Assembly (NCBI RefSeq): GCF_000479335.1
Contig: NC_022584.1
Span: forward strand, 1,798,001-1,862,000
Length of the DNA stretch: 64,000 bases
Source of the DNA: Streptococcus ilei
GTDB lineage: Bacteria; Bacillota; Bacilli; Lactobacillales; Streptococcaceae
Reading direction: 5' to 3'
Position numbers and translations under genes: made by a program. Shown here piece after piece: positions 1-12,200 of this stretch (its first letter is position 1; each line of letters begins with the position of its first letter). Under the pieces are notes generated by a model, which was not told where the DNA came from, made no database searches, and saw only the letters and a program-made list of their open reading frames with translations.

Positions 1-1706
1 TCCTAGGTGGTGCTGAAAACCATCTGGTCAAGGCTGTAGGTCGTATTGCAGAATTGTCTGCCAAGACAGCTGGTGTTGAGGGAACAACTGGTATTGGACA
101 TACTCGTTGGGCTACTCATGGGAAACCAACGGAAGACAATGCTCACCCACATCGCTCTGAGACAGAACGTTTTGTCTTGGTTCACAATGGGGTGATTGAG
201 AACTATCTTGAAATCAAGGAAGAATACCTTGCAGGGCACCACTTTAAGGGGCAAACAGATACTGAAATCGCTGTTCACTTGATTGGAAAATTTGCGGAAG
301 AAGATGGCTTGTCAGTTCTTGAAGCCTTCAAAAAAGCCCTTCACATCATCCGTGGTTCATATGCCTTTGCCTTGGTTGATTCGCAAGATCCTGAAGTCAT
401 CTACGTGGCTAAAAACAAATCACCACTCTTGATTGGTCTTGGAGATGGTTACAACATGGTCTGCTCAGATGCCATGGCTATGATTCGTGAAACCAACCAA
501 TACATGGAAATCCATGACCAAGAGTTGGTCATCGTAAAGGCTGATAGTGTTGAAGTGCAAGACTATGATGGAAATCGTCGTGAACGTGCTAGCTACACTG
601 CTGAGCTAGACTTGTCAGATATCGGTAAGGGAACTTACCCTTACTACATGCTCAAGGAAATTGATGAGCAACCAACAGTGATGCGTAAGCTAATCAACAC
701 ATACTCTGATGAGAATCAACAGATGGTTGTGGATCCTGAGATTGTTAAAGCGGTTCAAGAGGCAGATCGAATTTATATCATTGCAGCTGGAACTTCTTAT
801 AATGCAGGTTATGCTTCTAAAACGATGCTAGAAGAATTAACTGATACGCCTGTGGAATTGGGTATTGCATCTGAATGGGGTTATGCTATGCCGCTACTGA
901 GCAAAAAACCAATGTTTATTTTGCTTAGTCAGTCAGGTGAAACTGCTGATAGTCGTCAAGTTTTAGTAAAAGCTAATGAAATGGGAATTCCAAGTTTAAC
1001 TGTAACTAATGTTTCAGGCTCTACACTATCTCGTGAAGCAACTTATACTATGTTATTGCATGCTGGTCCAGAAATTGCTGTAGCTTCAACTAAGGCTTAT
1101 ACAGGACAAGTGGCGACATTAGCATTTCTTGCTAAGGCAGTTGGTGAAGCTAATGGTAATGAAAAAGCTAAAAAGTTTGATTTGGTGCGTGAACTTTCAA
1201 TTGTAGCTCAGTCTATTGAGTCTACACTTTCAGAGAAAGAATTGATTGAAGAAAAGGTTAGAGGACTCTTAGAAACAACTCGTAATGCTTTCTACATTGG
1301 ACGTGGTCAGGACTACTATGTAGTTATGGAGGCTAGCCTAAAACTTAAGGAAATTTCTTATATTCAGTGTGAAGGTTTTGCAGCTGGGGAACTTAAACAT
1401 GGAACTATATCTTTAATTGAGGATGGTACACCTGTAATTGCCTTAATTTCTGACAATCCAACCGTCGCTTCTCATACTCGTGGTAATATTTCTGAAGTAG
1501 TAGCTCGTGGAGCTAATGCTCTAACTATTGTGGAAGAAGGAATAGAAAAAGAAGGTGATGACATTATTATTAATAAAGTTCATCCATATCTATCTAGTAT
1601 TTCTATGGTTATTCCTACTCAACTGATTGCTTACTATGCTTCACTTCACCGTGGACTGGATGTAGATAAACCACGTAATTTGGCTAAGGCTGTTACAGTT
1701 GAATAA
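1..1706 (+). CDS. glmS: Glutamine-fructose-6-phosphate aminotransferase (5' end outside window), chimeric
   Basis: GlmS makes glucosamine-6-phosphate from fructose-6-phosphate and glutamine, the first step of hexosamine and peptidoglycan precursor synthesis. The frame is open from base 3 (LGGAENHLVKAVG), so the N-terminus with the catalytic Cys lies upstream. Visible are the rest of the glutaminase domain (TRWATHGKPT, HNGVIENY) and both SIS domains ([41 protein letters not shown]), ending in the usual C-terminus [15 protein letters not shown]. Codon use changes abruptly near base 665-700, from GC-richer codons to AT-rich synonymous codons. The original 3' half is found again, damaged, at 7437-8473. 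The gene therefore looks like a recombinant with an acquired 3' half, yet it is full length and probably functional. Confidence 0.95.
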   Translation, partial: LGGAENHLVKAVGRIAELSAKTAGVEGTTGIGHTRWATHGKPTEDNAHPHRSETERFVLVHNGVIENYLEIKEEYLAGHHFKGQTDTEIAVHLIGKFAEEDGLSVLEAFKKALHIIRGSYAFALVDSQDPEVIYVAKNKSPLLIGLGDGYNMVCSDAMAMIRETNQYMEIHDQELVIVKADSVEVQDYDGNRRERASYTAELDLSDIGKGTYPYYMLKEIDEQPTVMRKLINTYSDENQQMVVDPEIVKAVQEADRIYIIAAGTSYNAGYASKTMLEELTDTPVELGIASEWGYAMPLLSKKPMFILLSQSGETADSRQVLVKANEMGIPSLTVTNVSGSTLSREATYTMLLHAGPEIAVASTKAYTGQVATLAFLAKAVGEANGNEKAKKFDLVRELSIVAQSIESTLSEKELIEEKVRGLLETTRNAFYIGRGQDYYVVMEASLKLKEISYIQCEGFAAGELKHGTISLIEDGTPVIALISDNPTVASHTRGNISEVVARGANALTIVEEGIEKEGDDIIINKVHPYLSSISMVIPTQLIAYYASLHRGLDVDKPRNLAKAVTVE

Positions 1707-1719
1707 TAAATAGATGAAC

Positions 1720-1772
1720 AATAGGCGTAGGACTGGGAGGGTTATCTCTTAGATTTTACAGCCTATTTTTTG
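1720..1772 (+). terminator. Probable rho-independent terminator after glmS
   Basis: AATAGGC (1720-1726) can pair with GCCTATT (1761-1767), followed by a T-run. The loop is long, so this is a weak call. It would separate glmS from the mtl promoter. Confidence 0.4.
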
Positions 1773-1842
1773 TAACTCATAATTTGAATTTTTGATGCGG
1801 TTTTCGGTACATTTTGTTTTGTAATATGGTATAAAAAAAGAA

Positions 1843-1889
1843 TTTTGTGACAAAAGTTGATTTTTTTGGCACAAAATCTGTGACAAAGC
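1843..1889 (+). promoter_or_regulatory. Repeated TTGTGACAAA-like sites upstream of mtlA
   Basis: Three related near-palindromic motifs lie in 47 bp: TTTTGTGACAAAA (1843-1855), TTTTTGGCACAAAA (around 1864-1876) and TCTGTGACAAAG (1878-1889). They sit just upstream of a weak -35 region, where an activator such as MtlR would bind. Assignment to MtlR is inference from position only. Confidence 0.4.
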
Positions 1890-1895
1890 TTTAGT

Positions 1896-1923
1896 TTTAA
1901 GCGTTTTCATTTTTGTATATACT
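1896..1923 (+). promoter_or_regulatory. mtl operon promoter with cre-like site
   Basis: TTTAAGCGTTTTCA (1896-1909) matches the CcpA cre consensus TGWAANCGNTNWCA except at one position. A -10 TATACT lies at 1918-1923. No good -35 is seen at the right distance, which fits an activator-dependent, catabolite-repressed promoter. The cre would overlap the polymerase site, so CcpA should repress. Confidence 0.6.
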
Positions 1924-1951
1924 AGATTTAAAGAAAAGGAGGAAAATCCTA

Positions 1952-3727
1952 ATGGAAGAAAAAGTATCTTTGAAAGTTAGAGTTCAAAAACTGGGAACAT
2001 CACTTTCAAACATGGTTATGCCCAATATTGGGGCTTTTATTGCTTGGGGAGTGTTAACTGCCCTCTTCATTCCTGATGGCTATCTACCAAATGAACAATT
2101 GGCTACCATTGTTAGTCCTATGTTGACTTATCTACTGCCGACTCTAATTGGTTATACAGGTGGTTATGTAATTCATGGACAACGTGGGGCCGTCGTAGGG
2201 GCTATTGCTACTGTTGGTGCAATTACAGGTTCTAGTGTTCCAATGTTTATCGGAGCTATGGTAATGGGACCACTGGGAGGATGGACTATCAAGAAATTTG
2301 ATGAGAGGTTCCAGGAAAAAATTCGTCCCGGATTTGAAATGTTAGTTAATAACTTCTCAGCTGGTCTAGTTGGTTTTGCATTATTGCTTTTGGCTTTCTA
2401 CGCAATCGGTCCAGTCGTATCGACTCTTACTGGAGCTGTTGGAAATGGTGTTGAGGCTATTGTCAATGCTAAACTCCTACCTTTGGCAAACATTATCATC
2501 GAACCAGCAAAGGTACTTTTCCTTAATAATGCTCTTAATCATGGAATCTTTACACCTCTGGGAGCTGAGCAAGTATCTCAAGCTGGTAAATCTGTTCTCT
2601 TTCTCTTAGAGGCTAATCCTGGACCAGGTCTAGGTATCCTTTTGGCTTACGCCTTGTTTGGTAAAGGTTCTGCGAAATCTTCTTCTTGGGGAGCAATGGT
2701 TATCCATTTCTTCGGTGGTATCCATGAAATATACTTCCCTTATGTTATGATGAAGCCAGCTCTTTTCCTAGCTGCGATTGCTGGAGGTGTGTCAGGTACC
2801 TTTACATTCCAATTTTTAGATGCTGGTCTTAAATCTCCAGCTTCTCCAGGATCTATCATTGCGATTATGGCTATGGCTCCAAAAGGTGTGTGGCCTCATC
2901 TTAATGTCCTGCTTGGGGTATTAGTGGGAGCAATTGTCTCCTTCCTTGTAGCAGCTCTTATCCTACGTGCAGATAAGTCGACTGATGATTCGTTAGAAGC
3001 TGCTCAAGCTGCTACTCAAGCCGCTAAGGCTAAATCTAAGGGGCAAGTAGTTCCAGTTGCTGTAGATACAAACATTTCAAGAGATTCAGTAGAGAAAATT
3101 ATTTTTGCCTGTGACGCTGGCATGGGGAGTTCTGCGATGGGAGCAAGTATTCTTCGTGATAAGGTTAAAAAAGCAGGTCTGGAAATTCCAGTATCTAATC
3201 AGGCTATCTCAAATTTGGTTGATATACCAAAAACATTAATTGTTACTCAGGAAGAACTGACACCAAGAGCTAAAGGCAAGAGTCCAAGTGCTATTCATGT
3301 TTCTGTCGATAATTTCTTAGCGTCCCCTCGTTATGATGAAATTGTAGCTTCATTAACAGGAGCTGCTCCAATAGCAGAAATTGAAGGAGATATACCAACT
3401 TCAGTACCAGTAGATGGTCAGGAAATTGACCTTAACCATATTGATGCTGTAGTAGTTGCTTATGGTAAAGCACAAGGATCTGCAACTATGGGCTGTGAAA
3501 CGATTCGGGCTATCTTTAGAAACAAGAATATTCGTATTCCAGTTTCTACCGCCAAAATTTCAGAATTAGGTGAATTTAATTCTAAAAACATAATGATTGT
3601 AACAACTATTGCTTTACAGGCAGAAGTGCAGCAAGCAGCACCGAATTCTCAATTTCTTATTGTGGATAGTTTAGTAACAACACCAGAATATGATAAAATG
3701 GTTGCTAGAATGTATAAATATAACTAG
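1952..3727 (+). CDS. mtlA: PTS mannitol transporter EIICB
   Basis: MtlA takes up mannitol and phosphorylates it to mannitol-1-phosphate. I chose ATG 1952 (591 aa, MEEKVSLKVRVQ) because AAGGAGGAAAATCCTA precedes it; a longer frame from 1913 would start inside the promoter. The N-terminal ~340 residues are the hydrophobic EIIC domain (GAFIAWGVLTALF, GGIHEIYFPYVMMKP). A linker rich in Ala/Lys leads to an EIIB domain with the phospho-Cys at about residue 387 (FACDAGMGSSAMG). A second, degenerate EIIB-like copy follows at 3440-3724 with Tyr in place of that Cys. EIIA is encoded separately (mtlF). It is the first gene of an AT-rich mtl operon. Confidence 0.93.
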   Translation: MEEKVSLKVRVQKLGTSLSNMVMPNIGAFIAWGVLTALFIPDGYLPNEQLATIVSPMLTYLLPTLIGYTGGYVIHGQRGAVVGAIATVGAITGSSVPMFIGAMVMGPLGGWTIKKFDERFQEKIRPGFEMLVNNFSAGLVGFALLLLAFYAIGPVVSTLTGAVGNGVEAIVNAKLLPLANIIIEPAKVLFLNNALNHGIFTPLGAEQVSQAGKSVLFLLEANPGPGLGILLAYALFGKGSAKSSSWGAMVIHFFGGIHEIYFPYVMMKPALFLAAIAGGVSGTFTFQFLDAGLKSPASPGSIIAIMAMAPKGVWPHLNVLLGVLVGAIVSFLVAALILRADKSTDDSLEAAQAATQAAKAKSKGQVVPVAVDTNISRDSVEKIIFACDAGMGSSAMGASILRDKVKKAGLEIPVSNQAISNLVDIPKTLIVTQEELTPRAKGKSPSAIHVSVDNFLASPRYDEIVASLTGAAPIAEIEGDIPTSVPVDGQEIDLNHIDAVVVAYGKAQGSATMGCETIRAIFRNKNIRIPVSTAKISELGEFNSKNIMIVTTIALQAEVQQAAPNSQFLIVDSLVTTPEYDKMVARMYKYN

Positions 3728-3744
3728 AGGTTTCTAAATTACGA

Positions 3745-5700
3745 ATGCTATTAACCAAACGAGAAGAACAATTATTGAAGGCTTTCCTACATGTAGGGAA
3801 GCTTTCAATGCAAGACATGACTGAAATCTTACAGGTCTCATCTAGAACAATTTATCGGACTTTATCAGATTTGACAGATAGCATAGAGCAATATGGGATT
3901 GAAATAGCGAAGCGTGGGAAATACTATATTTTGACTGGCGAACTGGACGATCTACCAACAGAACTTGAAGTGTTAGTTGAGTATAGTCCCCAAGAAAGAC
4001 AAGAGTTGATTACTTATCGCCTTCTGACTGAGAATGGTTTTGTCACCAATGAAGCCTTGCAAGAGTGCATGAAAGTCAGTAATGTAACTATTATTCAGGA
4101 TATTTCAGATATTGATAAGCGTCTTTTAGACTTTGATCTGAAAATTGAACGGCAAAAGGGGTATCGCATTTCTGGTGATTCAGTTAGTAAGAGAAGATTT
4201 TTGGCTATTTTACTGACAAACTGTATCTCAGTAGCAGATTTTTCAACCGGTAATTTTGGAAGCTTTGATATTATAGAAGCAGATAGAACTAGGCTGGCCA
4301 GTCAGATTGTTAATAAGCAACTGTCAGGTTTTCCAGATATGGATGCTAGGATGAAGATGTTTTTTGCGATCTTGTTATCTCTTATAGGTCAGGAACAAAA
4401 CATTGAAAATTTGCCTAATACTAGTAAGCAAGCTTTGGAAATTTCTCAAAAAATTTTTCAAGCTTACTCTAAGCAGACTGAGCAATTTTATAGTATTCAG
4501 GAAATTATCTATTTTGCTAGCATCTTGGATGAATTAATCATTAAACGTCAGGAAAATCCGCTCTTTACGGAGAAATTTGATGGTGAATTTTTCTACAATA
4601 TTTCAAATCTGATTGATACGGTTTCTATGTACACCAAGATTGACTTTTTTAAGGACAAGGTTTTATTTAATTTTCTTTTCCATCATATTCGACTCAGTTT
4701 AGGCGTCCCAATCCTTTTTCAGGGTGAAAATTTGCCAGAATCTGTCCAGCTTTTAGTTGAAAGGAATAAATTTCTTTATACAGTCATCAGTCTTTTGGTG
4801 AATGATATTTTTCCGAAATATCTTCATACAGAGTATGAGTATGGCATGATTGCCCTGCATTTTATCTCTAGCTTAGGCCGTAGTCCAGAGATTTATCCAG
4901 TCCGTATTTTGCTTTTAACGGACGAACGTCGGGTCACTAGAGATTTATTAGTCAGTAAAATTAAGAGTGTTGCTCCTTTTGTAGAGTGGATAGATATTCA
5001 GTCTCTAGTAGATTACTACAGTATTGATCTCAGTCAGTATGATTATATTTTATCTACCAAGCCACTGGCTAATCAGGGAATCGATGTAATTTCTAGTTTT
5101 CCAACCGTCAAGGAATTGCTTGAATTGCAGGAACGGCTTCAGTATGTACAGGCACATCGTACAATTGTCGCGCGTGATGCTATCGGCCCTGAGAAAAGTT
5201 ATGACTTGCAAGATTATTTGATATCTAGCAGTCAACTTTTGAGTCAATTTGAGTTGGTTCAACTGGAGAATAATCAATCATTTGAGCATACAGTAGAACA
5301 AATTATCCAATATCAGAAGAATGTAAGTGACAGAGATTACCTAACAAGAAAACTGCTATCTCACTTCCAGAATAGTCCTATGGCTATTCCTAATACTGGC
5401 CTGGTGCTTTTACATAGTCAGTCTAGCAAAGTAACAACAAATAGTTTTACTATGTTTGAACTCAAACTACCTATCTCTGCATTGTCAATGAAACGAGAGA
5501 AAGAAGAGGTCAAAAGGTGTCTGTTAATGCTAATGTCTAAGGAGGCTAGCGAGGAAGTGAGAGATTTAATGACAGCTATCAGTCAGTCGATTATTGAAAA
5601 TCATCTTTATACAGAGATTTACAAGACGGGAAATCAATCCATTATTTATCAGATGCTAAATACTATTTTTAACGAAAAAATTAAGAAATTGGAGAACTAA
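3745..5700 (+). CDS. mtlR: Mannitol operon transcriptional activator, PRD family
   Basis: A 651-aa regulator with an N-terminal HTH ([22 protein letters not shown]), a central part expected to hold two PTS regulation domains, then EIIB-like (around residues 385-470) and EIIA-like C-terminal modules. In the family, phosphorylation by HPr and mannitol PTS components sets activity. It starts 17 bp after mtlA and ends one base before mtlF, so it is cotranscribed. The domain order fits MtlR/LicR-type activators; the mannitol assignment rests on the neighbours. Confidence 0.88.
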
Positions 5701-5701
5701 T

Positions 5702-6139
5702 ATGAAACTTGAAAAACATTTGATTAAGCTTGATAAACAATTTTCTAACAAGGAGGAAGCTATCCGTTATTGTGGGCAAGTTCTTTATGAGGGTGGATAT
5801 GTTAATGAAGACTATATGGAAGCCATGATTGAGCGTGATAAAGAGCTATCTGTTTACATGGGTAACTTTATCGCCATACCGCATGGAACAGATGCAGCGA
5901 AAAAGGATGTCCTCAAGTCTGGTATTACAGTCGTTCAAGTCCCAAGAGGGGTTGATTTTGGGAATGAATCTAACCCTCAAGTGGCAACGGTTCTTTTTGG
6001 TATTGCTGGTATTGGTAATGAACACTTAGAAATTATTCAGAAAATTTCTATCTTCTGTGCAGATGTAGATAATGTTCTTAAACTAGCAGATGCTCAGTCA
6101 GAAGAGCAAGTATTGCGCTTACTTGATGCTGTTGAATAA
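5702..6139 (+). CDS. mtlF: PTS mannitol EIIA component
   Basis: A 145-aa EIIA that passes phosphate from HPr to the EIIB domain of MtlA. The active-site His lies in [19 protein letters not shown], a signature of the mannitol/fructose EIIA family. The length is normal. ATG 5702 directly follows the mtlR stop with only one base between, indicating tight translational coupling. Confidence 0.93.
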
Positions 6140-6200
6140 TCGAATTTTTTCATTTATCATCTAGTATATATGTCACTCAAACAAGAAAAGGAGAAATTCA

Positions 6201-7337
6201 ATGAAACATGCTGTTCATTTTGGTGCCGGCAATATCGGTCGAGGTTTTATAGGCGAAATTCTATTCAAAAATGGTTTTCATATTGACTTTGTGGATGTCA
6301 ATAATCAGATAATTCATGCTCTAAATGAAAAGAGCAAGTATGAAATTGAAATTGCACAGGAAGGACAGCCCCGCATAGAGATAGCTAATGTGGCTGGCAT
6401 TAATAGTAAGGAGCATCCTGAGCAAGTCATTGAAGCGATTCAAAAGGCGAATATCGTTACTACTGCAATCGGACCTAATATACTCCCTTTTATCGCTGAA
6501 CTTCTAGCTAAAGGAATCGAAGCTCGTCGGGCTGTAGGAAATACGCAATCATTGGATGTTATGGCTTGTGAAAATATGATTGGTGGTTCTCAATTTCTCT
6601 ATCAAGAAGTCAAGAAACACTTAAGTCCGGAAGGTTTGACATTTGCTGAGAACTACATAGGTTTTCCAAATGCTGCAGTAGACAGGATTGTTCCAGCACA
6701 AAGTCACGAAGATCCTCTTTTTGTTGTGGTTGAGCCCTTTAATGAATGGGTTGTTGAAACCAAGCGTCTTAAAAATCCAGATTTACGTCTAGAAGATGTG
6801 CATTATGAAGAAGATTTAGAACCTTTTATTGAGAGAAAACTTTTTTCAGTCAATTCTGGACATGCAACTTCAGCTTACATTGGTGCACATTATGGTGCCA
6901 AGACAATTTTGGAAGCTCTTCAGAATCCTGATATCAAGTCTCAGATTGAATCCGTTTTAGCTGAAATTCGGAGTCTCTTGATTGCCAAATGGAACTTTGA
7001 TAAAAAAGAATTGGAGAATTACCACAAAGTCATTATAGAACGCTTTGAAAATCCTTTTATAGTGGATGAGGTTAGTCGAGTAGCTCGTACTCCAATCCGA
7101 AAATTAGGTTATAATGAACGGTTCATAAGGCCAATACGTGAATTGAAAGAACTCGGTTTGTCATATGAAAACCTACTTAAAACAGTTGGCTATGCCTTTG
7201 ACTATCGCGATGTAAATGATGAAGAAAGTGTTCGATTAGGTGAATTGCTGGCTAAACAATCAGTCAAAGATGTCGTTATACAAGTTACAGGTTTAGACGA
7301 CCAAGAATTGATTGATCAAATTGTAGAGTATATTTAA
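6201..7337 (+). CDS. mtlD: Mannitol-1-phosphate 5-dehydrogenase
   Basis: MtlD oxidises mannitol-1-phosphate to fructose-6-phosphate with NAD. The 378-aa product opens with a Rossmann dinucleotide site ([14 protein letters not shown]), has [15 protein letters not shown], and has the conserved C-terminal K/H region ([16 protein letters not shown]). ATG 6201 follows AAAAGGAGAAATTCA. It is the last gene of the mtl operon; its product is also the GlmS substrate. Immediately after its stop lies a BOX element fused to a glmS remnant. Confidence 0.95.
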
Positions 7338-7338
7338 T

Positions 7339-7444
7339 CTTTTTCGAAAATCTCTTCAAACCACGTCAGCTTCACCTTGCTGTAAGTATGGTTACTGACT
7401 TCGTCAGTTCTATCCACAACCTCAAAACACTGTTTTGAGCAACC
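7339..7444 (+). repeat. Partial BOX element
   Basis: The stretch CGAAAATCTCTTCAAACC ... CGTCAGCTTCACCTTGC ... GACTTCGTCAGTTCTATCC ... CTCAAAACACTGTTTTGAGC matches the pneumococcal BOX repeat (established knowledge; the BOX-A1R primer lies in its CGTCAGC..CCTTGC part). It is truncated: after TTTTGAGCAACC the expected BOX continuation is replaced by glmS sequence. Confidence 0.85.
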
Positions 7445-8473
7445 AACGATGATGCGTAAGTTGATCCAAGCTTACACAGATGATGCTGGTCAAGTAGTAG
7501 TAGACCCAGCTATCATCAAGGCTGTTCAAGATGCAGACCGCATCTACATTCTTGCAGCTGGAACATCTTACCATGCAGGATTTGCTTCTAAGAAGATGTT
7601 GGAAGAATTGACAGATACGCCAGTTGAACTCGGTATTTCATCTGAGTGGGGCTATGGGATGCCACTTCTCAGCTAGAAACCACTCTTCATCTTTATCAGT
7701 CAATCTGGTGAAACAGCTGATAGCCGTCAAGTTTTGGTCAAGGCCAATGAAATAGGAATCCCAAGCTTGACAGTGACAAACGTGCCTGGTTCAACTCTGT
7801 CACGTGAAGCAACCATACCATGTTGCTTCATGCAGGTCCTGAAATTGCCGTAGCATCAACCAAGGCCTATACAGCACAAATCGCAGCCCTTGCCTTCCTT
7901 GCAAAAGCAGTTGGTGAAGCAAATGGCAACGAAAAAGCTAAAGCATTCGACTTGGTACATGAATTGTCTATCGTCGCTCAGTCTATCGAATCCTCTCTTT
8001 CAGAAAAAGAGCTGATTGAAAATAAAGTTCGTGACCTTCTTGAAACAACACGTAACGCCTTTTACATCGGACGTGGTCAAGATTACTATGTGGCCATGGA
8101 AGCCAGTCTCAAACTCAAAGAGATTTCTTACATCCAATGTGAAGGCTTTGCGGCAGGAGAACTCAAACACGGAACGATTGCCTTGATTGAAGAGGGAACA
8201 CCTGTTTTGGCCCTCTTGTCAGACCCTGTCCTTGCTAACCACACTCGTGGAAATATCCAAGAAGTGGCAGCGCGTGGCGCTAAGGTCCTTACCATTGCAG
8301 AAGAGAATGTTGCCAAAGATACAGATGATATCGTCCTTACGACCGTACACTCTTACCTCTCACCAATTTCAATGGTCGTACCAACTCAACTAGTCGCTTA
8401 CTTTGCAACCCTACACCGTGGACTCGATGTGGACAAACCACGGAACCTTGCTAAATCCGTAACAGTAGAATAA
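7437..8473 (+). pseudogene. Displaced 3' half of glmS (glmS')
   Basis: The sequence encodes the GlmS C-terminal part from EQPT onward, parallel to residues encoded at 666-1706, with the codon use of the surrounding chromosome. It lacks the whole glutaminase domain and a start of its own. There are two clear lesions: an in-frame TAG where the intact copy has the first Lys of SKKP (7674-7676), and a one-base deletion near 7816-7822 (GCAACCATACC for GCAACCTATACC) that shifts the frame. The remainder (7820-8473) is open to the natural stop. It keeps the native glmS terminator downstream. It is a relic of the resident gene, not a paralogue. Confidence 0.93.
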
Positions 8474-8478
8474 AAAAA

Positions 8479-8510
8479 GAAGCTAGGATCCAGTCCTAGC
8501 TTCTTATTTT
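8479..8510 (+). terminator. Native glmS terminator
   Basis: Perfect 10-bp stem GAAGCTAGGA (8479-8488) / TCCTAGCTTC (8494-8503) followed by TTATTTTATT. Confidence 0.85.
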
Positions 8511-8564
8511 ATTAGAGACTGGGTTACAAACAGTGAGTTAGAAAAGAGAAGGAAGAGTTATAAA

Positions 8565-8739
8565 GAGGCTGGGACAAAAGTCCTAGCCTCTCAATTGTCT
8601 TTGGATTGTCGAGCAAGACGCAGTGGTTGAGTGGGCTCTACTAGGCTGATTTCATCAGCTTTTACAGCCCTACTCAACTGTGCGGAGGTGGGACGACGAA
8701 ATCGAATTCTAACGAATGACCGATTTCTGTCCCACTCTC
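8565..8739 (+). repeat. Dispersed ~175-bp intergenic repeat, copy 1
   Basis: It begins with a terminator-like hairpin (GAGGCTGGGAC..GTCCTAGCCTC), contains a long imperfect palindrome (GTTGAGTGGGCTCTA ... CAGCCCTACTCAAC with an inner GCTGATTTCATCAGC hairpin) and ends CCCACTCTC. Near-identical sequence occurs inverted at 59130-59304; divergent or partial copies lie at 15347-15626 and 43627-43751. It sits between convergent genes. The stop codon of the Cof gene (8738-8740) lies inside its end. Confidence 0.85.
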
Positions 8740-9559
8740 ATTTGTTTGATGGGGATAAGACATACTCTTGGATAGCTTGTGCTACACCGTGTTCTTGGTT
8801 GCTGGTGGTGACAACTTGAGCTTCCTTCTGGACAGCTTCAGGAGCGTTTCCCATGGCAACTCCAAGTCCAGCCAGACGAATCATGGGGAGGTCGTTGAAG
8901 TGGTCTCCGATGGTCATGACCTGTTCTAAAGGGACCTGGTAATAAGCAGCCAGTTCAAGGACAGCATCTCTTTTTGAGACGGACTTGGCGGTGACTTCTA
9001 GGTAGTTTTCCTTTGAAAGGTAGAAAGCAGTCTGAGGAAATTCTTGTGGATCTAGCTTTTGATAGAGTTCTTGAATGTTCTGAGTATCGCCGATCAAGAG
9101 CAATTTATGTAGATGGAGAGCATCGTCAGAGAGGGTCTGAGAAAGGGGCTGTATCTGTGGCGTCTCACCAGTAATCGAAGCCTCAACTTGGGTCCACTGG
9201 TCCTCTCTGGAGTTAAACCAGACTGACCCACTATAACAATTAATCGAAATGCTGGAATCTAGTTCTTCCACACGATGGAGGAAGGTGCGGATCTCATCTT
9301 TGTTCAGGCTGTGTTCAAATAGAATCTCTTCTCCCTTGACGATGAGAGCTCCATTATAGCAAGCGATTGGTTCCTGGTGGACGCCCAATCTTCTTGCGAT
9401 AGGAGCAATCCCGATAGGAGAACGAGCCGATGCCAAGATAAAAGGAATCTTTTTTTCTTGGAGCTTGGGGATGAGTTCGATGAGGTCGGGATCGACCTGA
9501 TGCTGCTGGTCCAGAATGGTTCCGTCAATATCACTGACAATTAAACGAATGGAAGACAT
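8738..9559 (-). CDS. Cof-type HAD-IIB family sugar-phosphate phosphatase
   Basis: A 273-aa cytoplasmic HAD hydrolase. Motif I is IVSDIDGTIL, motif II is FILASAR, and motifs III/IV are SKRDAVLELAAYY plus TIGDHFNDLPMIRLAG, typical of Cof/YkrA-like enzymes that dephosphorylate sugar phosphates or FMN; the substrate is unknown. ATG 9559 is preferred: AGGAGG lies 5 bases upstream, whereas an upstream GTG at 9565 overlaps the Shine-Dalgarno. It is transcribed opposite to its neighbours. Confidence 0.88.
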   Translation of the reverse strand: MSSIRLIVSDIDGTILDQQHQVDPDLIELIPKLQEKKIPFILASARSPIGIAPIARRLGVHQEPIACYNGALIVKGEEILFEHSLNKDEIRTFLHRVEELDSSISINCYSGSVWFNSREDQWTQVEASITGETPQIQPLSQTLSDDALHLHKLLLIGDTQNIQELYQKLDPQEFPQTAFYLSKENYLEVTAKSVSKRDAVLELAAYYQVPLEQVMTIGDHFNDLPMIRLAGLGVAMGNAPEAVQKEAQVVTTSNQEHGVAQAIQEYVLSPSNK

Positions 9560-9694
9560 AGGCACCTCCTTTTTCTTTAGTATACCATATTTTAGGAGAA
9601 TGAAAAGGAGGGGTATAGTTGATTCTTATAACGGGGTCAAGTAATTTTCAAAGTAGGTTCCTTTCTTCAAAAATAAAATAATAGATCAGAATGC

Positions 9695-9731
9695 GCGCAA
9701 GGCTTTATTTTCAAGGGCTTGCGCTTTTTTT
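9695..9731 (+). terminator. Hairpin with T-run upstream of the URO-D operon
   Basis: GCGCAAG (9695-9701) pairs with CTTGCGC (9718-9724), followed by seven T. No gene precedes it on the + strand, so it may be a leftover terminator or a leader structure. The rest of 9560-9878 holds the promoter block described next and nothing else that I can identify. Confidence 0.6.
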
Positions 9732-9757
9732 GATACCTACCTCAATAAAGAAATTTT

Positions 9758-9787
9758 AAGGCCTTGATAGGGAAAATATATTAGTCA
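9758..9787 (+). promoter_or_regulatory. Conserved upstream block of the first URO-D-like gene
   Basis: A 30-bp block with CTTGATA and ATATATTAGTCA recurs almost unchanged at 11112-11141 upstream of the second paralogue. It contains a -10-like TATATT. Its conservation in non-coding DNA suggests a shared promoter/operator. Confidence 0.5.
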
Positions 9788-9878
9788 GCTACTTTTCGAG
9801 GTGATATCATGGTTACAAATTTCAGAAGGGCAGCAATCAGTCTTCCTTTTGGAGAAGAGATTGAGGAGGTTTCACGGT

Positions 9879-10880
9879 ATGAGTAAAAAAGAATTGGTTC
9901 TTCGTGCCATTCGAGGCGAAGCAGTAGAGCGAATTCCTGTAGGATTTTGGCTCCATTATGTGACCCAAGAAGAAAAAGAATTGGGTCTAGACAATCCGGC
10001 CGTACTTGAAAAAAGTATCAAAGGACACCAACACTATGTTGAAGAAATTTCACCTGATTTTGTCAAGATTATGAGCGATGGCTTCTTCCGCTATCCGAGT
10101 GCTCTTTATTCGAGAGAGATCACATCAATCCAAGAATTAAAGGATATTCAGCCCATCGGAGAGCATCATCCTTGGATTGAAAAACAAATTGAAGTGGTCA
10201 AGGAAATTCGTTCTCATTTTCATGAGGAGATTGCTTCTTTCTACAACATCTTCTCGCCCATTTCTTATTTGAAACGCTGGTTCCGGACAGATCATTCTCG
10301 CGGGGATCAAGTGATTGCGGACTTTATCAAGGAAGATCCAGAAACCTTGGCCCATGTACTTGATGTCATTGCTGAAGATATCGCTATTCTTAGTCGCCGC
10401 TTGATCCAAGAAGCGGGAGTGGAAGGGATTTACTTCTCAACTCAGCAGATCCAAGATGAGCGCGTGACAGATGAAGAATACCGCAAGATTATTGAACCGA
10501 GCAGTATCGCTGTCCTAGAAGCGGCCAATGAAGCGGGTGGCATCAATATCCTTCATATCTGTGGCTTTGAAGGAGCTAGCAATGAAGTGGAACTCTTCAA
10601 GGATTATCCAGCTCAGGTTATCAACTGGGCGACCCATCATGAAGGGATCAGCTTAGCAGAGGGGCGCAAGCTCTTTGGCAATCGCGCCGTCTTGGGTGGC
10701 TTTGTCAATGGTAAGAAAGGCTTGCTCTACCAAGGGGAACGAGCAACTATCGAGCAAGAAACCCGTCGCTTGGTGGCAGAAGCTGGAAGTCGCGGTTTGA
10801 TCCTTGGAGCAGACTGCACCGTGCCAGACGATTTCCAATTGGAACGTCTTGATTGGGTGCGCCAAGCAGCTGTCTTATAA
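9879..10880 (+). CDS. URO-D superfamily methyltransferase-like protein, paralogue 1
   Basis: The 333-aa protein belongs to the uroporphyrinogen decarboxylase superfamily, which also holds corrinoid/thiol methyltransferases (MtaA, MtbA, CmuA). The UroD N-terminal arginine motif (RQAGR) is absent; the equivalent region reads RIPVGFW. It has HIC at residues 226-228 and a Cys at 313 (GADCTVP), the spacing of the zinc ligands in MtaA-type methyltransferases. I chose ATG 9879 after GAGGAGGTTTCACGGT because it gives the same length and N-terminus as paralogue 2; a longer frame from 9801 has no support. Function is not established: probably methyl transfer on a small thiol or amine. Confidence 0.8.
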   Translation: MSKKELVLRAIRGEAVERIPVGFWLHYVTQEEKELGLDNPAVLEKSIKGHQHYVEEISPDFVKIMSDGFFRYPSALYSREITSIQELKDIQPIGEHHPWIEKQIEVVKEIRSHFHEEIASFYNIFSPISYLKRWFRTDHSRGDQVIADFIKEDPETLAHVLDVIAEDIAILSRRLIQEAGVEGIYFSTQQIQDERVTDEEYRKIIEPSSIAVLEAANEAGGINILHICGFEGASNEVELFKDYPAQVINWATHHEGISLAEGRKLFGNRAVLGGFVNGKKGLLYQGERATIEQETRRLVAEAGSRGLILGADCTVPDDFQLERLDWVRQAAVL

Positions 10881-10898
10881 AAGAGAAAGGAGAGGGAG

Positions 10899-11099
10899 AT
10901 GAAAAAAATCAATATTTGGTGTCTGATGCTGGTAGCTTTATTCCTAGTCCTAGGACTCGCAAAAGTTGCTGCCGCTAGCAGTCAAGAGGAAAGCAAAACG
11001 GATCCGGATGTGGAAAGACTGGAGAAAATTCCAGCTCATAGTCTCTCCCTCATTCGCCCGTCTGATCTAGCAGGAGTCCTGCTCCTAGAAGATCAGTGA
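10899..11099 (+). CDS. Small exported or membrane-anchored peptide, 66 aa
   Basis: ATG 10899 follows GAAAGGAGAGGGAG. The product begins MKKINIWCLML and has a hydrophobic stretch to about residue 22, an AxA-like site (VAAASS) and a polar, acidic tail ending LLEDQ. It looks like a signal peptide plus a ~40-residue mature peptide. It starts 18 bp after paralogue 1 and is probably cotranscribed with it. I do not recognise the family. Confidence 0.55.
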   Translation: MKKINIWCLMLVALFLVLGLAKVAAASSQEESKTDPDVERLEKIPAHSLSLIRPSDLAGVLLLEDQ

Positions 11100-11111
11100 T
11101 AAAAAAAGATG

Positions 11112-11141
11112 AAGGGCTTGATAAAAAATATATATTAGTCA
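11112..11141 (+). promoter_or_regulatory. Conserved upstream block of the second URO-D-like gene
   Basis: This repeats the 9758-9787 block with about five substitutions in 30 bp (CTTGATA, then ATATATATTAGTCA). It suggests that paralogue 2 and the downstream transporter have their own promoter, controlled in the same way as paralogue 1. Confidence 0.5.
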
Positions 11142-11198
11142 AAAAAAAGTCCAAGTGTTAAGATAACTAGCAAGAAAAGAATAGAACGAGGTAAGAAC

Positions 11199-12200
11199 AT
11201 GTCCACAAAAAGAGAATTAGTTTTAAAAGCTTTCAGAGGGGAAGCGGTTGACCGTGTGCCAGTTGGCTTTTGGCATCACTTTACAAGGGAAGAAGAATGG
11301 TTGAAAGGTTTTTCCAATCCTGAAATTATTGAAAAAAACCTCAATGGTCATAAAAACTTCCTACACAAGGTCAAACCAGACTTTGTCAAACTCATGAGTG
11401 ATGGCTACTTTGCTTATCCAAACCCAGCTATTTACAAGGGCCTTGAAAACATCTCGGATTTAGCAGGGATTGAACCCCTCGGGGCAGATCATCCATGGAT
11501 TACAGAGCAGGTAGAACTGGTCAAAAAAATCCGTGCCGATTTTGAAGAAGACATTGTAGCCATTTACAATATCTTTGCTCCGGTAACCTACTTCAAATGG
11601 TTGGTCGGAGAAGTTTCAGGTGGCGATGACTTGATTGCAAACTTTATCGATCAAGATGCCACTACTCTTAAAAAAGTACTAGATACCATTGGCCAAGACA
11701 TCGCTAGTTTGAGCCAACGAATCATCAAAGAAGCTGGAGCAGACGGGATCTACCTCAGTGTTCAAAGTATTCAAGATGAGCGCGTGAGTCAAGAAGTGTA
11801 CAAACAAGTCATTGCGCCGAGCGAACTCCATGTTTTAGAAACAGCGAATGAAGCAGGTGGGGTGAATATCCTTCATATCTGTGGCTACGAAGGAGCTCGC
11901 AATGATATCCACCTCTTCACAGACTACCCAGCTCAAGTCATTAACTGGGCGGTTGGACCAGAAGGCATCAGCCTAGCGGAAGGACGCGAAATCTTTGGTG
12001 GACGCACGGTTCTTGGTGGCTTTGAAAATGGCAAAAATGGTCTCCTCTACACAGGAGACAAGGCTGCGATCCAAGCAGAAACCAAACGCATCATCGCAGA
12101 AACAGGAACCACAGGCTTGGTCATCGGTGCGGATTGTACCATTCCAAGTGATATCGATGAAGAACGAATCGAATGGGTTCGTGAAGCAGCAGCAGAATAA
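11199..12200 (+). CDS. URO-D superfamily methyltransferase-like protein, paralogue 2
   Basis: 333 aa, collinear with paralogue 1 over its whole length. The invariant blocks are RGEAV-R-PVGFW, PDFVK-MSDG, NILHICG, YPAQVINWA, EGISLAEGR, VLGGF and GADCT-P. The candidate Zn ligands H226, C228 and C313 are kept. ATG 11199 follows ACGAGGTAAGAAC. It is 27 bp upstream of a solute-binding protein gene, so it is in an operon with an amino-acid-type ABC importer, which suggests that the imported compound is its substrate. It is not a haem enzyme: no other haem-biosynthesis gene is nearby and the UroD motif is missing. Confidence 0.8.
   Translation: MSTKRELVLKAFRGEAVDRVPVGFWHHFTREEEWLKGFSNPEIIEKNLNGHKNFLHKVKPDFVKLMSDGYFAYPNPAIYKGLENISDLAGIEPLGADHPWITEQVELVKKIRADFEEDIVAIYNIFAPVTYFKWLVGEVSGGDDLIANFIDQDATTLKKVLDTIGQDIASLSQRIIKEAGADGIYLSVQSIQDERVSQEVYKQVIAPSELHVLETANEAGGVNILHICGYEGARNDIHLFTDYPAQVINWAVGPEGISLAEGREIFGGRTVLGGFENGKNGLLYTGDKAAIQAETKRIIAETGTTGLVIGADCTIPSDIDEERIEWVREAAAE

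Follow-up and report, generated by a model that had tools for sequence, protein, structure and literature searches.

A mannitol operon between two glmS 3′ halves in a Streptococcus chromosome: a chimeric glmS, a BOX joint and a resident remnant

How does a four-gene mannitol operon come to lie behind an unbroken copy of an essential gene, with a broken second copy of that gene's 3′ half on its far side? The question is posed by the window, a stretch of 64,000 nucleotides at positions 1798001-1862000 of a 1.99-Mb Streptococcus chromosome (genome G000). At its left end a chimeric glmS is followed by mtlA, mtlR, mtlF and mtlD, a cut BOX element of about 100 bases, and a broken second glmS 3′ half. 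A sequence-only reading of this DNA had described the two glmS copies and the operon, and had explained them by homologous recombination with a single donor that displaced the resident 3′ half. The observation is confirmed here, its interpretation is supported in part, and the locus is more layered than was thought. Added to it are a chimera of the same kind in S. sanguinis, a second mtl source at the end of mtlD, a nine-base joint in a BOX element that had gone unmentioned, and the usual linkage of glmS and mtl in other species. The locus probably arose by one transformation event with a mitis-like strand, homologous on the left and illegitimate on the right. In what follows, G240 and G241 are S. 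sanguinis BCC31 and KO16, and the labels mitis group, mitis-like and S. sanguinis-type for other numbered genomes rest on trees and BOX content. The features, numbered from the first base of the window, are these:

1-677 (+): resident-type (mitis-group) part of glmS, glutaminase domain; the first 105 bases of the gene lie outside the window, to its left.
672-691 (+): interval that holds the left breakpoint (codons 260-266), in the stretch that links the glutaminase domain to the SIS domain, from nucleotide alignment and domain positions.
692-1706 (+): foreign, AT-rich 3′ half of glmS, SIS/isomerase part; 99% identical to BCC31 and 91% to KO16.
1952-3727 (+): mtlA, EIICB of the mannitol phosphotransferase system (PTS); NF011663 and TIGR00851 over cut-off, 98-100% DNA identity to BCC31.
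3745-5700 (+): mtlR, transcription regulator of Mga/PTS type; Pfam Mga HTH, HTH_11 and PTS_EIIA_2 together with operon position, no NCBIfam model over cut-off.
5702-6139 (+): mtlF, mannitol PTS EIIA; PF00359 with E 1e-34, no NCBIfam model over cut-off.
6201-7337 (+): mtlD, mannitol-1-phosphate 5-dehydrogenase; NF002647 over cut-off, last ~105-240 bases G129-like.
7345-7444 (+): BOX element truncated where boxC begins (boxA, a single boxB and AACC), from repeat copies in other genomes; left edge approximate.
7436-7444 (+): right joint, TGAGCAACC, nine bases common to BOX and resident glmS.
7437-8473 (+): remnant of the resident glmS, a 3′ half turned pseudogene by a TAG at 7674 and a 1-base deletion near 7811.
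8474-8545 (+): 3′ flank of the resident glmS, in which a hairpin resembling a terminator was noted by eye; 7436-8545 aligns with the glmS ends of G135 and G140 at 91-92%.

The window glmS is a chimera, and its change of origin lies far beyond chance. Its reading frame begins at -105, is open past the left edge of the window, and runs for 603 codons without an internal stop. GC content at third codon positions falls from 39.1% (3-677) to 19.6% (693-1703), which bears out the AT-rich second half. In nucleotide alignment with relatives, the gene follows the mitis group as far as 671 or 677 and BCC31 from 692; the breakpoint narrows to 678-691 if A677 is the resident allele. Trees of the two halves were built from a subset of the 284 streptococcal genomes searched (98 rows, reduced to 87 by removal of identical ones). 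The 5′ half is placed within the mitis group (support 100/99), inside a 17-row mitis-like set with a score of 98 in the Shimodaira-Hasegawa-like approximate likelihood ratio test (SH-aLRT), and the 3′ half is placed with BCC31 and KO16 (100/99). The approximately unbiased (AU) test rejected grouping of the 5′ half with mtl-positive S. sanguinis (p 4.9e-40) and of the 3′ half with the mitis group (p 4.7e-33), and with them a uniform phylogeny along glmS. As had been proposed, these alignments and trees place a foreign glmS 3′ half and mtl segment inside a resident glmS, with the essential gene whole again as a chimera.

The foreign half itself is rare. With 281 of the 284 genomes matched, only the window, BCC31 and KO16 exceed 78% identity among the matches listed, the next match standing at 78%; no relative without mtl is listed with the AT-rich half above that level, and matches beyond the list have lower scores. 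Its synonymous divergence (dS) from BCC31 is 0.034, and window and BCC31 are 96.3% identical over 7.3 kb, the resident-type 5′ part included. Among the 3,655 pairs formed by 86 glmS sequences, the two halves differ in identity by more than 10 points in 59; 54 of these involve the window, BCC31 or KO16, with extremes of -23 and +22, and the remaining five reach at most 10.1. A whole glmS of the 692-1706 type, which would mark the source species, was not found in the 284 genomes.

Behind glmS stands a complete mannitol PTS set (EIICB, regulator, EIIA and mannitol-1-phosphate dehydrogenase, with mtlR and mtlF recognized by Pfam domains only), all four genes being open frames. The operon DNA has 37.7% GC, against 45.5% for the glmS remnant. 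A single donor had been proposed for the whole segment, and this did not hold. From the glmS 3′ half to ~7100-7230 the sequence is S. sanguinis-like, with operon identity to BCC31 of 94-100% up to ~7184 and 74% beyond. The bin from 7184 gives 96% to G129, 80% to KO16 and 74% to BCC31, so that the switch to G129-like sequence falls within mtlD at ~7100-7230, and BOX follows. By these identities, the end of the operon resembles a second, mitis-type (G129-type) mtl. In G129 itself (L087 2657-10305, in glmS orientation) an intact mitis-type glmS is followed by an mtl that is 93% identical to that of the window over 5.6 kb, then by a BOX directly behind mtlD, and then by a gene that in several other mitis-type genomes comes after glmS. 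In the mitis-like G106, which lacks mtl at this place, a BOX separates glmS from the gene that follows. By eye, the glmS 3′ flank of G129 resembles the foreign-type flank of the window. Carriage of the operon by a plasmid or phage was also considered and rejected: megablast found no near match on plasmid and phage records, the sole plasmid match being 67 bases of mtlD in Salinivibrio and the sole phage match the BOX stretch.

The two glmS 3′ halves do start at the same point, as had been noted: both begin with GAGCAACCAAC, at 666 and 7437. The second copy has no 5′ half, one in-frame TAG (7674-7676) and the 1-base deletion near 7811. It is 93% identical to G140 and groups with G024 and G140 in a quick tree (SH-aLRT 84), and it is of the resident's kind and young. 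In the sequence-only reading the resident 3′ half had been displaced; it was kept as a remnant behind the operon. Stop and frameshift aside, 4 synonymous and 5 nonsynonymous changes are private to the remnant; in 21 working copies the counts are 0-5 and 0-2, respectively. These private changes hint at relaxed constraint, and pairwise dN/dS is not raised (0.02-0.05). Measured by the private changes and by the dS of 0.034, the event is recent. Local duplication of the glmS 3′ half with later divergence of one copy would account for two copies flanking mtl, but their synonymous divergence is saturated and they fall in different clades, by which the trees rule it out; we give this explanation practically no credence.

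At ~7345-7444, between mtlD and the remnant, lies the cut BOX element. BOX elements are reported to be common in S. pneumoniae, to occur in S. mitis, and to be rare outside these two and nearly lacking in S. sanguinis (PMC3049150). Like the elements described there, that of the window has boxA- and boxB-like parts and the first boxC bases (modules assigned by eye); unlike them it has glmS in place of the rest of boxC. In G229 and G060 the repeat has copies that match the window base for base over the last ~55 bases leading up to the joint and differ from it at 1-3 positions to the left of these; past the joint they read TGCGG and TGTGG, whereas the window enters glmS. Both joint partners, BOX and resident glmS, contain the 9-bp TGAGCAACC, and at least nine shared bases occurred in 17 of 200,000 random joints. 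Homologous recombination as the mode of entry is likely for the left end, which lies in homologous sequence, and is not supported for the right. The boxA primer site has 4 mismatches in 22 bases in the window and 2-3 in five other loci (L026, L182-L185); it was not found in L087 (G129) or L007, where both repeats differ inside. Within G000 the BOX stretch has one full-length match, its own, and 4 partial ones, and among the matches listed it occurs in dozens of other genomes. A stretch near the record end of an S. pseudopneumoniae satellite phage (MK448497.1 12766-12863) is 92% identical to the repeat.

The chimera is not peculiar to the window. Both mtl-positive S. sanguinis genomes, BCC31 and KO16, have one of the same kind, with the same breakpoint in an otherwise native glmS. 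They group with ten S. sanguinis-type genomes, none of which has mtl beside glmS, in the 5′ half (100/100) and not in the 3′ half (p 1e-4); in the 15 pairs listed with S. sanguinis-type genomes, the 5′ halves are 94.4-97.8% identical and the 3′ halves 73.6-75.1%. The switch in BCC31 and KO16 lies at or before 697 in window numbering. KO16 keeps the last 198 bases of native glmS behind mtlD, which together with the flank are 99.0% identical to G048 over 1,539 bases; in BCC31 native sequence resumes directly after the glmS stop. Since the right ends fall at 666 (window), at ~1509 (KO16) and directly after the stop (BCC31), the left border is common and the right joints differ. For six of seven relatives, the changeover from native to BCC31 sequence falls within a stretch of 12-20 identical bases in glmS; for G281 no stretch of at least 12 is present there.

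Linkage of glmS and mtl is usual in the mtl-positive streptococci examined. MtlD is present in 31 of 147 genomes; in 25 of these, the window's included, mtlD follows glmS in the same orientation at a distance of at most 7.5 kb, in three it is within 20 kb of glmS, and in three it is on the other strand or another contig. Because mtl adjoins an essential gene, the operon carries a homology arm that is present in every recipient. All seven loci examined for comparison (G132, G150, G024, G237, G281, G135 and G140) have a single glmS and no mtl at this site. The resident flank on the right of the locus is 97.7% identical to G132 over 8740-12000; the glmS of G132 is unbroken, and an extra gene separates it from the matching flank. 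A narrow search by title and abstract start found no publications on streptococcal glmS-mtl.

The mosaic with its breakpoints, the 9-bp tract at the joint, the BOX, the remnant and the linkage in other species stand in the sequences themselves; from them we infer the following route and order of events. Natural transformation would have delivered a DNA strand of a mitis-like donor in which the chimera already existed, with mtl and a preformed glmS 3′ half of S. sanguinis type. Donor and recipient would have paired by homology in the glmS 5′ half, and the strand would have peeled off where homology ended, its BOX joining resident glmS at TGAGCAACC. The incoming 3′ half would have preserved GlmS function without a break, starting with the first transformed cell. 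A mitis-like immediate donor is proposed because BOX follows mtlD both here and in G129, and BOX is reported to be nearly absent from S. sanguinis. Since glmS and mtl are neighbours in most mtl-positive streptococci, glmS would serve both as the homology arm and as the restored target, which would give an outcome like that of a mobile element without a recombinase. The presence of comEC supports transformation. We hold this single event to be the probable explanation, with some reserve.

The reserve has several grounds. No genome besides the window, among the 284, combines a mitis-type 5′ half, the foreign 3′ half, mtl and BOX, so the donor is hypothetical, and comEC was the sole competence gene searched for. 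Positions 1-300 are 99% identical to G132 and G132-like in the tree (99/99). Positions 301-677 are 89-94% identical to the mitis-group genomes scored, the nearest being the mitis-like G092 (with one BLAST piece per genome, G024, G140, G135, G150 and G281 of the resident group have no value, and all five are in the 301-677 tree). This change of nearest relative, like the place of the whole 5′ half in the 17-row mitis-like set, hints at a mitis-like donor. The 301-677 tree was tried as proof of a mitis-like donor 5′ half and did not prove it: a mitis-like donor set against the resident's group gave AU p 0.19 and 0.105, which is suggestive only. The BOX of G129 differs internally, has no boxA primer site that could be found, and reads GAGCAGCC at the joint position. 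Capture of foreign DNA by the homology-facilitated illegitimate route usually deletes resident sequence; with a left crossover at 672-691 none is missing here, and with one near 300 about 365 bases would have been exchanged. Finally, the left breakpoints of the window and S. sanguinis agree within ~25 bases. Of the identity-run weight, the left-border block holds 11% when the recipient is G132-like and 0-6.5% for six other recipients; chance is not a comfortable account of the coincidence, which the single event leaves unexplained.

A rival history has two steps. A double homologous exchange would first swap the glmS 3′ half for the foreign half, mtl and BOX, and a piece of the native 3′ half with its right flank would return later, its left end joined to BOX through nine bases and its right end through homology. 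The usual insertion-deletion geometry is kept, and the right-flank homology and the loss of both the rest of BOX and the gene that follows BOX in G129 and G106 are accommodated, and a recipient with a G129-type mtl of its own would account for the G129-like mtlD end and the BOX. The second event would, however, have to start within ~25 bases of the first breakpoint, and we judge this history unlikely, if worth keeping in mind. The shared left border speaks for a site-specific mobile unit, in which the glmS 3′ half and mtl would integrate at a core around glmS codons 258-266, restoring the gene in the manner of integrative elements, by a recombinase lost or acting in trans; that both window copies start with the same 9-11 bases fits as well. 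Yet the unit holds four mtl genes only and no recombinase, its right ends are not constant, its right joint falls within a repeat that has copies in other places, and the mtl of G129 has another left border. The absence of a nearby integrase had been reported before and stands: the nearest of six tyrosine-recombinase domains (PF00589) in the genome is 43 kb away, serine recombinases not having been searched for. Such a unit is improbable. The version with one donor and homologous recombination at both ends can claim the left end, which lies in homologous sequence; with only nine bases shared at the right end, the resident half kept and two mtl sources, it is very improbable.

More tentatively, and with considerable doubt, glmS-mtl may be a recombinase-free travelling cassette. 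Through the position of mtl beside an essential, conserved gene, each transfer would supply its own homology arm and replacement half-gene, and the cassette would land repeatedly at the same 20-base inter-domain block, in S. sanguinis and in a mitis-group species.

Processes of related kinds are known. Homology-facilitated illegitimate recombination, with insertion and deletion in transformation, was reportedly described by Prudhomme and colleagues in PNAS in 2002; dependence on RecA and on DNA uptake would be expected of it. Like the window, it joins DNA by homology on one side and through a handful of common bases on the other, in a naturally transformable genus, whereas the window keeps its resident sequence, has the essential gene whole again as a chimera and stacks several sources. 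Gene-restoring integrative and conjugative or integrative and mobilizable elements insert in the 3′ part of a gene and restore that gene. The window shares with them the insertion inside a gene, the replacement 3′ part and the displaced remnant, and differs in that no recombinase was found inside, right ends vary between genomes and the right joint lies in BOX. In S. pneumoniae, transformation-made merodiploids have been described, tandem duplications of ~100-900 kb that form by pairing of long repeats (PMC3784515). There, as here, transformation and repeats give a second chromosomal copy, essential genes included, but the window keeps 1 kb of resident glmS behind foreign DNA. The process would be of a known kind and its form new: a restored essential gene, a leftover resident half, a BOX joint and the same border in another species. 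The locus preserves, at base resolution, the natural trace of a gene capture between species. Its essential gene is whole again in place, and no recombinase was seen nearby; a neighbour that every recipient possesses may be the reason that certain operons spread readily. A repeat element tied to the joint and a breakpoint common to two species make ideas of a hot spot and of domain compatibility testable.

Other observations concern glmS and its surroundings. In G081 (L093 2921-4638) glmS is in two pieces, broken near query codon 353, and in G145 (L094) it carries an insert; G045 and G086 gave no full glmS match (best E 1.5e-12 and 4.5e-12), by assembly gap or loss. A flavin-oxidoreductase-like gene, named by eye (L158-L167, L026, L092), follows glmS in some S. 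sanguinis and mitis-group genomes and is missing in others. Around the window start (L097) the resident flank is a patchwork, 93-100% identical to G024 from ~-1500 to -300 and 98-100% to G132 from ~-300 to +300. No Rfam RNA reached the gathering threshold in window 1-9600. Further right, at 9801-10880 and 11199-12200, are adjacent similar genes that look by eye like uroporphyrinogen decarboxylase-type methyltransferases. Closer to the remnant, 8562-8743 is an interspersed repeat of ~180 bases, with a 98% copy near position 1791083 of the same genome (L097 1083-1264) and copies at ~95-98% near glmS of G024, G140 and G132.

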